Source: an uncultured Treponema sp. (GTDB lineage Bacteria > Spirochaetota > Spirochaetia > Treponematales > Treponemataceae). From it: a stretch of 34,353 nucleotides of DNA. Below, piece after piece: positions 20,005 through 24,825 of the stretch; the stretch's first letter is position 1; each line of letters opens with the position of its first letter. The DNA lies in assembly GCA_945915085.1 (NCBI GenBank), contig CAMEET010000016.1, positions 1-34,353 of the forward strand, in the 5' to 3' direction. The notes below the pieces were generated by a model that saw only the letters and a list, made by a program, of their open reading frames with translations, was not told the origin of the DNA and did no database searches. The translations under genes and the position numbers were made by a program.

Positions 20005-21495
20005 ATGAACCTTCTTACAAAACTTAAAGAAACAGCCATTTCTGTTTTTCCCGTTATGTTAATAGTTTTGATTCTGGGACTTTTTATTGTTCCAATCGAT
20101 AAAACATTGTTATGCGGATTTATTGTGAGTGGAATTCTGCTTACTTTGGGATTGACAATTTTTCTTTTAGGTGTAGATTTGGGAATTCAGCCCATGGGAG
20201 AAAGAACTGGTGCCGCTTTGACAAACAAAAAAAATCTCTTTCTTCTATTATCTTGTGCTTTTGTAATTGGATTTATTGTCACTGCAGCAGAACCTGATAT
20301 TCAGGTTTTTGCTTCGCAGGTGAAAAATCATTTTCCGAGCATTTCAAAACCTGTTTTTACAATTGCTATTGCAACTGGAGTAGGATTATTTATCACAATC
20401 GGACTGTTAAAAACTGTTTTGAATTGGTCACTTAAATGGACACTGTTCATTTTCTATGTTATTTTATTTACGATTTTAACTTTTGTTTCAGACAGTTTTG
20501 TTGGCATTGGTTTTGATTCTGGCGGCGCAACAACAGGACCAATGACAGTTCCTTTTATCATGGCACTTGGACTTGGTGTTTCTTCCGTTCGTGCCACAAA
20601 CGACAACAAAAACTCTTTTGGATTAACTGGAATAGCCTCTTTAGGACCTGTGATTGCTGCTCTGATTTATTCTTTTTTTGTGAATCAAAATATAAATGTA
20701 GCAGAGAATTCTACTGCACATGCAATTACAGTTGCACAAACAGGATTTTTAGCCAAAATTTTTCTTCCTTTTGCACAATGCTTTTTACATGTTTTACAGG
20801 AAGCGTTAATTTCCATTTTACCGTTGTTCGTTTTGTTTATCGTTTTTCAAATCTTCCTTTTAAAAATGACAAAACGACAGGTTATCAGAATGACGATAGG
20901 TTTTTTCTATAGTTTTACAGGACTTTTATTATTTCTAGTTGGTGTGAACGGTGGATTCATGCAGACCGGAGAAGTTCTTGGCAAAACTTTGGGAGAAATG
21001 GTTGCACAAAACGGTGGAATCTGGTATCTCATTTTGATTGTAACAGGACTTTTACTTGGTGCCATTATTGTTTGTGCTGAACCAGCAGTATGGGTTTTGA
21101 GCGAACAAGTTGAAGCTGTAAGCGGAGGTACAATCAAACGAAAAGTGCTGCTTGTTTTTCTGTCTGTTGGAACTGCCATTGCCATAGGTCTTTCTTTATG
21201 GCGTTCAATTGCAGGAGTAAATCTGCGTTTCATTTTAATTCCAGGATACATCATTGCTTTTATACTGATGATTTTTTCTCCAGATTTATTCACAGGAATT
21301 GCGTTCGATTCAGGCGGAGTTGCTTCAGGACCATTAACATCAACATTTGTACTTTCTTTTACAATAGGAGCTGCAAACGGATGTGGAAAAACCAATGATT
21401 CATTTGGTGTGATTTCGCTAGTAGCACTCATGCCGTTGATTGCCATTCAGATTATGGGAATTATCTTTAAACTAAAAACAAAAAAGAGAGGGTAA
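20005..21495 (+). CDS. Membrane protein with two DUF1538-type repeats
   Basis: Internal duplication: AAEPDIQVFASQV / CAEPAVWVLSEQV and GIGFDSGGATTGPMTVPFIMALGLG / GIAFDSGGVASGPLTSTFVLSFTIG. Confidence 0.85.
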   Translation: MNLLTKLKETAISVFPVMLIVLILGLFIVPIDKTLLCGFIVSGILLTLGLTIFLLGVDLGIQPMGERTGAALTNKKNLFLLLSCAFVIGFIVTAAEPDIQVFASQVKNHFPSISKPVFTIAIATGVGLFITIGLLKTVLNWSLKWTLFIFYVILFTILTFVSDSFVGIGFDSGGATTGPMTVPFIMALGLGVSSVRATNDNKNSFGLTGIASLGPVIAALIYSFFVNQNINVAENSTAHAITVAQTGFLAKIFLPFAQCFLHVLQEALISILPLFVLFIVFQIFLLKMTKRQVIRMTIGFFYSFTGLLLFLVGVNGGFMQTGEVLGKTLGEMVAQNGGIWYLILIVTGLLLGAIIVCAEPAVWVLSEQVEAVSGGTIKRKVLLVFLSVGTAIAIGLSLWRSIAGVNLRFILIPGYIIAFILMIFSPDLFTGIAFDSGGVASGPLTSTFVLSFTIGAANGCGKTNDSFGVISLVALMPLIAIQIMGIIFKLKTKKRG

Positions 21496-21499
21496 CTTT

Positions 21500-22147
21500 A
21501 TGTATAAATTGATTATAAGTATTGTGCCTCATAATTGCGGAGAAATAATTACAGGTGCAGCAGTTGAAGCAGGTGCAACAGGCGGAACAATTTTGATGGG
21601 GCGCGGAACAGCACAAAACAATATTTTACAGTTACTCGGATTAGGTGAAACTTCGAAAGATATTGCATACATTCTGACGAAAACAGAACAGACTTTGCAA
21701 ATCATTGAAAAAATAAAGGAAGTTACTGGTTCTAGAAAAAATCATTTTGGAATTCTTTTTACAGTAAATGTTAATGCTTTTATAAAAAGTGGTGAAGCAA
21801 AATTCAAGAAAAATGGAGGTGATTTTATGGAAAACAACAATGAATCTTACGAAATGATAAATGTTATAGTAAATAAAGGTTATGCCGAAGACGCAATGGA
21901 TGCCGCAAGAAAAGCAGGTGCTGGCGGCGGTACAATCATAAATGCACGTGGAACTGCAAAACCAGGCGATGCAACATTTTTTGGTGTTGACATCATTCCT
22001 GAAAAGGAAATGTTATTTATTTTGACCGAAAAAAACAAAAAAGACGATATCATAAAAGCAATTTCTTCGTTGGAGTGTTTTAAGAAAACAGGAAGCGGAA
22101 TAATCTTTTGCAATCAGGCAGAAAATTTTACTTTTCTTGGAAAATAA
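21500..22147 (+). CDS. Tandem-fused PII-like (P-II family) protein
   Basis: Two PII-like halves: EAGATGGTILMGRGTAQ...IAYILTKTEQTLQIIEKI and KAGAGGGTIINARGTAKPGDATFFGVDIIPEKEMLFILTEKNKKDDIIKAI. Confidence 0.82.
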   Translation: MYKLIISIVPHNCGEIITGAAVEAGATGGTILMGRGTAQNNILQLLGLGETSKDIAYILTKTEQTLQIIEKIKEVTGSRKNHFGILFTVNVNAFIKSGEAKFKKNGGDFMENNNESYEMINVIVNKGYAEDAMDAARKAGAGGGTIINARGTAKPGDATFFGVDIIPEKEMLFILTEKNKKDDIIKAISSLECFKKTGSGIIFCNQAENFTFLGK

Positions 22148-22609: not shown

Positions 22610-22619
22610 TCGGGTTCAA

Positions 22620-22745
22620 AACCTGTGAGCGCTGGGAGGGGCGCCGAAGGCGGTCACCGCAACGACGGGAGGAAACGTAGTGAACGACCAGAGTGAGGAG
22701 ACTGGAGCGACAGCGGAACCCCGTACATAGCGTCCTCGAAGAGGC
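22620..22745 (-). repeat. GC-rich mosaic interspersed repeat, copy C
   Basis: Reverse complement contains GGGGTTCCGCTGTCGCTCCAG and CGCCTTCGGCGCCCCTCCCAG, matching GGGGTTCCGCTATCGCTCCAG and TGCCTTCGGCACCCCTACTAT of copy A. Confidence 0.75.
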
Positions 22746-22773
22746 ACAGCCAGATAAATCTAAAGAGGTTTTT

Positions 22774-24825
22774 ATGAAAGAAAAAGATAACGAACATAAT
22801 GAAAAATGCAGCTGTCATGAACATTCATATGGCGGTCATTCTCACAGAGGTCATTCGCACGAACATAGTCACGAACATGGACACGAGGGCAAGGAGCTTT
22901 CAACAAAAGGTTTGATTTTGGCGGCGTGTCTGTATGTCTGTGGAATTATTGTGGAACATCTGCCGGTGGAATCTTGGTTTGGTTTTTCGCAGTCTGTTCA
23001 CGAGGCGGCTGTTTTGGTTCTGCAGTTTTTTGCATACATAATTGCTGGAAAAAAAGTAATTTTGAATGCTGTAAGCAACATTATTCACGGCGAGTTTATG
23101 GACGAAGCGTTTTTAATGACGATTTCTTCTATTGGTGCGATTATTTTGGGAAAAGTCGAAGAGGCTACGGCTATTATGGTGCTGTATCAGGTGGGCGAAA
23201 AGTTTGAAGATTTTGCGGTGGATAAAAGTCGTCATTCTATCGAAGAAATTGCAAAATTGCGGCCTGACCATGCAACTTTGAAGTTGGAAAACGGTACTAA
23301 AAATGTGGCTGCAGATGAAGTTTCTACGGATTCTATCATTATTGTAAAACCTGGTGAACGTATTCCTATTGATGGTATTATTTCGGATGGCGAAAGTTTT
23401 CTGGATACTTCGGCATTGACTGGGGAAAGCATTCCAAAAAGGGTTTGTGCTGGTGACGAAGTTCTTTCTGGTTCTATTAACATTCAGGGAGTCTTGGAAA
23501 TTCGCACTACAAAACAAGCAGGAGATTCTGCTTTGTCTAGAATTCTTGAACTGGTAGAAAATGCTTCGGAAAATAAAACAAAATCTGAGCAGTTTGTTTC
23601 GCGTTTTGCAAAAGTTTACACTCCGATTGTTGTGTTTGCCGCACTTGCTGTGGCTGTAATTCCAGGTCTGGTGACTGGTTTTGCAAGTGGAAACTGGGCT
23701 TATGAGTCAAACTGGAGCATCTGGATTTACAGAGCATTGATGTTCCTTGTTGTCAGCTGCCCTTGTGCGCTTGTTATTTCTATTCCTCTTTCTTTCTGCG
23801 GTGGAATTACTTCCTGTGCGCGTCGTGGAATTCTGGTAAAAGGAAGCACTTATCTAGAAGCTCTTGCGAATACAAAAACTGCTGTTTTCGATAAAACTGG
23901 AACTTTGACTAAAGGAAATTTTGTTGTAACTCATATTCATGCAACGAATTCTGAAATCACGGAAGATGAGCTTCTTGCGCTTGCAACTCATACTGAAATG
24001 TTTTCAACTCATCCAATTTCTACTTCTCTCAAAGCTGCTCATCACGACAAATGTTGTGATACGGTTGTTCTTGAAGATGTTAACGAAATTACGAGCAAGG
24101 GAATCAAGGCTATTGTAAACGGCAAAGAAGTTTTGGCTGGAAACACAAAACTCATGAATGATTTTGCCATTGAATATAATGAATGTGCTGAACATCAGGA
24201 TGGAACTGTGATTCATGTAGCTTGCAACGGAATTTATTCTGGTCATATTGTAATCAGTGATGAAATAAAAGATGACAGCGAACTTACTGTAAAAGGTCTT
24301 AAGTCTGCTGGCGTCGAGAATATTGTAATGCTCACTGGTGATAATGAAAAAGCTGCTTACACTGTTGCATCAAAACTTGGACTTCACAAGGCTTATGGTC
24401 AGCTTTTAAGTGCTGATAAGCTTGCAAAAGTTGAAGAACTTCTCGGTGATCTTTCAAAAAATGGAAAAAAACGAGGTTCGCTGATTTTTGTTGGTGACGG
24501 TATTAATGACGCACCTGTTCTGGCACGCGCTGATGCTGGAATTGCAATGGGAGCAATGGGCTCTGATGCTGCCGTAGAAGCCAGTGATGTTATTATAATG
24601 GAAGATAAACCTTCCAAAATTGTGGAAGCAATTAAAATCAGCCGCAAAACGTTGAAAATCGTGTATGAAAACATTATCGGTTCGCTTGGAATAAAAGGTG
24701 CAATTCTGATTTGTTCTGCGTTTGGAATAACAAACATGTGGCTTGCAGTTTTTGGTGATGTCGGAGTTACAATTCTGGCTGTTTTGAATGCACTTCGACT
24801 TTTAAAAAAATCTAAAAAGTGTTAA
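22774..24825 (+). CDS. P1B-type heavy-metal (Zn/Cd/Co-type) transporting ATPase with His-rich N-terminus
   Basis: VSCPCALVISIPLSF, DKTGTLTKG, TGESIPK, MLTGDNEKAA, VGDGINDAPVLARADAGIAMG. ATG at 22774 after AAAGAGG; the 27 aa upstream in the track come from the repeat through a GTG. Confidence 0.94.
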   Translation: MKEKDNEHNEKCSCHEHSYGGHSHRGHSHEHSHEHGHEGKELSTKGLILAACLYVCGIIVEHLPVESWFGFSQSVHEAAVLVLQFFAYIIAGKKVILNAVSNIIHGEFMDEAFLMTISSIGAIILGKVEEATAIMVLYQVGEKFEDFAVDKSRHSIEEIAKLRPDHATLKLENGTKNVAADEVSTDSIIIVKPGERIPIDGIISDGESFLDTSALTGESIPKRVCAGDEVLSGSINIQGVLEIRTTKQAGDSALSRILELVENASENKTKSEQFVSRFAKVYTPIVVFAALAVAVIPGLVTGFASGNWAYESNWSIWIYRALMFLVVSCPCALVISIPLSFCGGITSCARRGILVKGSTYLEALANTKTAVFDKTGTLTKGNFVVTHIHATNSEITEDELLALATHTEMFSTHPISTSLKAAHHDKCCDTVVLEDVNEITSKGIKAIVNGKEVLAGNTKLMNDFAIEYNECAEHQDGTVIHVACNGIYSGHIVISDEIKDDSELTVKGLKSAGVENIVMLTGDNEKAAYTVASKLGLHKAYGQLLSADKLAKVEELLGDLSKNGKKRGSLIFVGDGINDAPVLARADAGIAMGAMGSDAAVEASDVIIMEDKPSKIVEAIKISRKTLKIVYENIIGSLGIKGAILICSAFGITNMWLAVFGDVGVTILAVLNALRLLKKSKKC

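Follow-up and report, generated by a model that had tools for sequence, protein, structure and literature searches.

A conserved internal start signal in a tandem PII gene of Treponema may provide the third domain of a PII trimer

Few signal proteins are as widespread as the PII proteins, which act as trimers and are generally described as homotrimers. What, then, is to be made of an open reading frame (ORF) which encodes two unequal PII domains in tandem and carries a second set of start signals between them? Such an ORF occurs in the stretch of DNA analysed here (the window: 34,353 nucleotides of contig CAMEET010000016.1, from an uncultured Treponema sp.), downstream of a gene for a DUF1538 membrane protein. 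An earlier note on this DNA had offered two readings of the internal signal: a relic ribosome-binding site (RBS), left when two PII genes were joined through loss of a stop codon, or a working RBS from which a free second domain is made alongside the tandem protein. We favour the second, as part of a broader explanation to which we would assign a probability of about three in four: two proteins are made from one mRNA, the shorter completes a trimer, and the trimer gates the antiporter-like protein encoded upstream.

Layout of the gene and identity of its domains

The features concerned, all on the plus strand, are as follows.

20005-21495, plus strand: membrane protein with two DUF1538 domains (UmpA-UmpB-like fusion), the likely PII target; PF07556 matches in two stretches, 403 bits; ends 4 nt before the PII ORF
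21485-21492, plus strand: Shine-Dalgarno (SD) sequence of the full-length PII protein, AGAGAGGG, within the 3' end of the DUF1538 ORF; SD energy at the start of this ORF in 130 relatives, median -11.2
21500-22147, plus strand: tandem PII ORF (sequence, ORF list, Pfam), long product D1-D2, 215 aa
21500-21793, plus strand: PII domain 1 (D1), fast-evolving (Pfam and same-genus alignment)
21794-21859, plus strand: hypervariable linker holding the internal start signal, 16-38 codons in relatives (same-genus comparison)
21815-21823, plus strand: internal SD, GGAGGTGAT; anti-SD duplex energy -15.5 kcal/mol
21827-21829, plus strand: internal start codon, ATG, codon 110
21827-22147, plus strand: predicted short product, free PII domain 2 (D2), 106 aa (Pfam, tree)

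Direct reading of the sequence bears out the internal SD and in-frame ATG which the earlier note had placed between the two domains. The linker sequence AAATGGAGGTGATTTTATGGAAAAC has GGAGG at 21815-21819 and an ATG at 21827-21829 in frame with the ATG at 21500, and the inter-domain sequence AATGGAGGTGATTTTATG consists of a nine-nucleotide match to the anti-SD, GGAGGTGAT, together with the in-frame ATG at 21827. The gap from GGAGGTG to this ATG had been put at about 7 nt; it is 5 nt, or 3 nt when the full nine-nucleotide match is counted. Two same-genus genomes carry the standard anti-SD, TGGATCACCTCCTT. Within the window the nine-mer GGAGGTGAT occurs once, against 0.06 expected, while the pattern GGAGG-N5-10-ATG occurs twice, against 2.3 expected, and is not significant by itself. 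Because this window-only count matches chance, the weight of the case rests on conservation.

Both halves of the ORF are PII-like. Pfam PF00543 matches it in two stretches at 41 bits (cut-off 25); taken singly, D2 lies above that cut-off at 30.4 bits and D1 below it at 17.3 bits, and mean pairwise identity within the genus is 0.47 for D1 against 0.67 for D2. The canonical GlnB/GlnK motifs, those for T-loop uridylylation and for the C-terminal GDGK (PROSITE PS00496, PS00638), were found in none of 130 tandem ORFs and none of 133 domains. An AlphaFold2 monomer model of the tandem protein, built from an input of three sequences, was of low confidence (pLDDT 50). The Foldseek list obtained with it includes single PII chains, at target TM-scores of about 0.45-0.6, amid other ferredoxin-like repeats, and tells us no more than that the fold is a repeat of this kind. 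The PII-like protein BB0017 of Borrelia was set aside, as it belongs to a different family.

A canonical PII domain is found elsewhere in the same genome, at the C-terminus of an ammonium-transporter-like protein with an open frame of 587 aa (L296; G000:C48:3966-4280). It is the sole other PII match above the cut-off in this genome, and it does match the second canonical motif, the C-terminal GDGK.

Conservation of the internal start signal

The gene was found in 181 of 196 same-genus genomes, with no internal stop among the matches listed. We compared 130 of these same-genus loci, which form 91 clusters at 80% identity. An in-frame linker ATG with an SD is present in all 130, at a median duplex energy of -9.3 kcal/mol, and 98% of the linker SDs lie at or below -6 kcal/mol. 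The corresponding median is -11.2 at the start of the ORF and the energy is -2.4 at other in-frame ATGs; the nearby conserved methionine of 'EMIN' gives -0.8. RNA openness is 0.57 at the internal ATG against 0.44 at random codons, a difference to be read alongside the higher A+T content of the linkers. A stop codon would be expected from base composition in 71 of the 130 linkers and is seen in none, so the long product is under selection as well.

SD-like sequences between domains may also serve to slow the ribosome for folding, without any initiation, and folded domains do lie on either side of this linker. A pause, however, would not call for a start codon at a set distance, whereas here the spacing of SD and ATG varies little (standard deviation 1.45 nt) and that of SD and domain far more (8.5 nt); the SD therefore tracks the ATG and not the domain boundary. 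GTG, moreover, substitutes where the ATG has been lost (L057, L059, L213, L224 and L300), and ORFs with three PII domains, described below, have similar linkers but no SD. We regard ribosome slowing as a most improbable account of the site.

A further concern is that the nucleotide signal might be a by-product of the peptide. The pattern GE..M or GD..M is common among same-genus linkers, and a motif G-[DE]-x-x-M might be retained for reasons of protein function, the SD being accidental; resampling of synonymous codons does already yield fairly strong SDs (mean -7.71, sd 0.18). The observed value of -9.63 is nonetheless about ten standard deviations stronger than this null, and none of 500 draws reached it. 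The SD is mostly read in frame as GGA-G.., but roughly one locus in five has it in another codon frame, and several such linkers lack the motif altogether: L015, in which the SD AAGGAGGTG encodes KEV (linker KEVNPM), L087 (NKEDKM) and L030 (EQEGKAM). As clostridial linkers, furthermore, have no peptide in common, we reject conservation of a peptide, the least credible of the alternatives considered.

The signal extends well beyond the genus. The arrangement of a fused DUF1538 gene and, after it, a two-domain PII ORF whose linker holds an SD and a start occurs in other genera of the family, in other families of the phylum and in Clostridia, the clostridial loci being taken from annotated plasmid records. 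In a wider deduplicated sample, with a signal threshold of -6 or below and counts that depend on HMM-based linker borders, it is present in 154 of 158 loci of the genus, 30 of 33 from other genera, 24 of 28 from other families and all five from Clostridia. The 28 include L245 and L265, counted as tandem, which look like triple ORFs incompletely matched; without them the figure is 24 of 26. The five clostridial linkers, among them that of Vescimonas fastidiosa (GTAGGAGGAGGTAAAACC-ATG), have no peptide in common with the spirochaetal ones, and all carry the signal. One two-domain locus, L252, has a weak SD (-3.5) and no known third domain, and seven other tandem loci have energies from -4.8 to -5.9. 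The earlier note had named relatives lacking the GGAGG-ATG at the linker as contrary evidence; nearly all two-domain relatives have the signal, and most of the exceptions encode a third PII domain elsewhere.

Domain phylogeny bears on the possibility that the RBS is an unused relic of two PII genes joined by stop-codon loss. In the main tree all D1 domains, spirochaetal and clostridial alike, form one clade (98/95), while D2 groups with the single-gene PII of split-UmpAB operons (98/95); in a second tree, with the three-domain proteins included, D1 is again one clade (99/95), and the position of the single proteins shifts. D1 is thus the added, faster-evolving copy. The kinship of D2 with single-gene PII is what a relic would lead one to expect, as is an ATG at the position where a single PII would start. 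Since the D1 clade spans spirochaetes and Clostridia, however, the tandem is old, the fusion having taken place before spirochaetal and clostridial genes parted. A relic would be expected to decay in a linker whose pairwise identity is 30%, yet SD and start are kept in nearly all two-domain genes, despite wide divergence and a changing distance to the domain.

A search for relatives with two separate PII genes brought up none; the split-UmpAB operons carry just one. Methylocystis and Chelativorans encode their UmpA- and UmpB-like proteins in two genes, after which comes a lone PII gene, and one genome (G212) has both a split-type locus with a single PII (L035) and a fused-type locus (L291). 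The junction between the two DUF1538 domains in the same operons offers an internal comparison: its median energy is -2.6, and 12% of those junctions with an ATG lie at or below -6. The lack of an SD-ATG there implies that fused genes in these operons do not simply keep their old start signals. A linker that changes freely, SDs in differing frames and the interchange of ATG and GTG together argue for selection on the start signal and not on the peptide, and we reject the relic, which we consider very unlikely.

The alternative offered in the earlier note, a working RBS giving both the tandem protein and a free D2, is by the same token strongly supported by comparison among genomes. The internal start at 21827 is, we believe, very probably used in the cell.

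A count of three PII domains

The use to which a free D2 might be put is suggested by loci that lack the internal start. Among more distant spirochaetes, at phylum level (L245-L264, L270 and L273), the PII ORF has three PII domains, of which Pfam detects one or two per ORF, weakly, while each matches the D2 profiles in profile-profile comparison at about 99% probability. An internal start signal is present in 2 of 24 of their linkers. Three-domain proteins branch apart from D1 and D2 (94/97; midpoint-rooted tree) and therefore look like a separate amplification. At two further loci, L274 (G475) and L299 (G264), a tandem PII ORF without an internal start is followed by a DUF1538 protein which itself ends in a PII domain, weak in Pfam at 14.3 bits; a second locus in G264 is without this fused domain and has GGGAG-GTG at its linker. 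Three PII domains would thus be available at each kind of locus, whether as two domains and an internal start, as three in one chain, or as two and one on the transporter, a pattern that rests on few independent lineages.

The DUF1538 proteins encoded upstream of three-domain PII ORFs are unusually long, at about 550-750 aa against about 500.

As PII proteins are trimers, a D1-D2 chain together with a single free D2 gives exactly the number of domains that one trimer requires. We accordingly envisage the following scheme. Ribosomes starting at 21500 would make the two-domain D1-D2, and those starting at the internal RBS and ATG (21815-21829) would make free D2, both products being under selection. 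One chain of each would form an asymmetric D1:D2:D2 regulator, which would dock on the DUF1538 protein encoded upstream, a UmpAB-like cation/proton antiporter, and the binding of a small molecule would allow the trimer to gate it. Other lineages may have reached the count of three by other evolutionary routes, through a triple chain or a two-domain chain with a transporter-fused domain.

The steps of this scheme differ in strength. Gene order makes control of the putative DUF1538 antiporter by PII likely and suggests direct contact between the two. The single D1:D2:D2 trimer, suggested by domain counts in few lineages, we hold to be evenly poised between true and false. The internal start might instead work while free D2 homotrimerises or alters dosage, D1 and D2 assembling separately, for example as a dumbbell of a D1 trimer and a D2 trimer, and the recurrence of three being coincidence. 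The grouping of D2 with single PII proteins, presumably homotrimers, lends this some weight, but it leaves unexplained both the absence of the internal start from three-domain ORFs and its loss beside a transporter-fused third PII domain. We treat separate homotrimers as a serious, if somewhat less probable, possibility.

Should the asymmetric trimer prove correct, a large group of spirochaetes and clostridia would possess a PII regulator whose composition is set by two starts in one gene. This would add a case of one gene encoding two proteins which annotation pipelines have missed, listing a single P-II family protein, and would connect the DUF1538 antiporters, a family with no regulator in the literature searched, with signalling by PII. 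The loci would also form a natural series (one domain, two plus a start, three, two plus a fused domain) for testing the role of trimer asymmetry.

Related systems and genomic surroundings

PII proteins are known to adjoin, or to be fused to, transporters, as in GlnK-AmtB and SbtB-SbtA. The present locus resembles these pairs in encoding a PII-type domain with a transporter, of which it is probably the gating partner, and departs from them in having two unequal domains per chain with an internal start, no canonical PII signatures and a different transporter. Mixing of two kinds of PII subunit within one trimer has a precedent in the GlnB-GlnK heterotrimers of E. coli (van Heeswijk 2000, cited in PMC5448240); their subunits, unlike those proposed here, are each encoded by a gene of their own, and the mixing varies.

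The closest parallel for the internal start is Cas11, the product of such a start inside cas8 or cas10d in type I-B, I-C and I-D CRISPR-Cas systems (cases reviewed in PMC11899642). As is proposed here for PII, one ORF there gives a long protein and, through an in-frame internal SD start, its C-terminal portion as a free subunit of the same complex, and the tandem PII ORF shares with the Cas11 cases a conserved in-frame SD and start codon at a domain border. The proteins are unrelated, however; the short product here is a PII domain, and alternatives exist in which the third domain is supplied in cis or on the transporter. An internal start that adds a subunit to its own complex is thus a known principle, the use of which in PII is, as far as we could find, undescribed: literature searches for DUF1538 together with PII, and for tandem PII, returned nothing.

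UmpAB of Halomonas zhaodongensis is a two-component Na+(Li+,K+)/H+ antiporter of the DUF1538 type (PMC5484666), described in a paper whose text does not mention PII. The upstream gene in the window is likewise DUF1538, with one UmpA-like and one UmpB-like half, but the halves are fused. They match the NCBIfam UmpA and UmpB models at 150.1 bits against a cut-off of 490 and 148.4 bits against a cut-off of 500, respectively; as these equivalog cut-offs are missed, the protein is best described as a DUF1538 homologue and not as an assured UmpAB orthologue. DUF1538 genes at L280, L281 (G489) and L289 (G495) have no recognisable PII gene within the several kb fetched.

On the 3' side of the PII ORF lie two genes that look like a unit of their own, one for an ArsR-type regulator and one for a heavy-metal P-type ATPase. 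The ATPase (22693-24825), with a His-rich N-terminus, HEHSYGGHSHRGHSHEHSHEHGHEG, adjoins the ArsR/SmtB-type regulator, and the two are probably a metal-efflux pair. Between them, at 22610-22692, is a G+C-rich stretch in A+T-rich surroundings, perhaps a repeated element.
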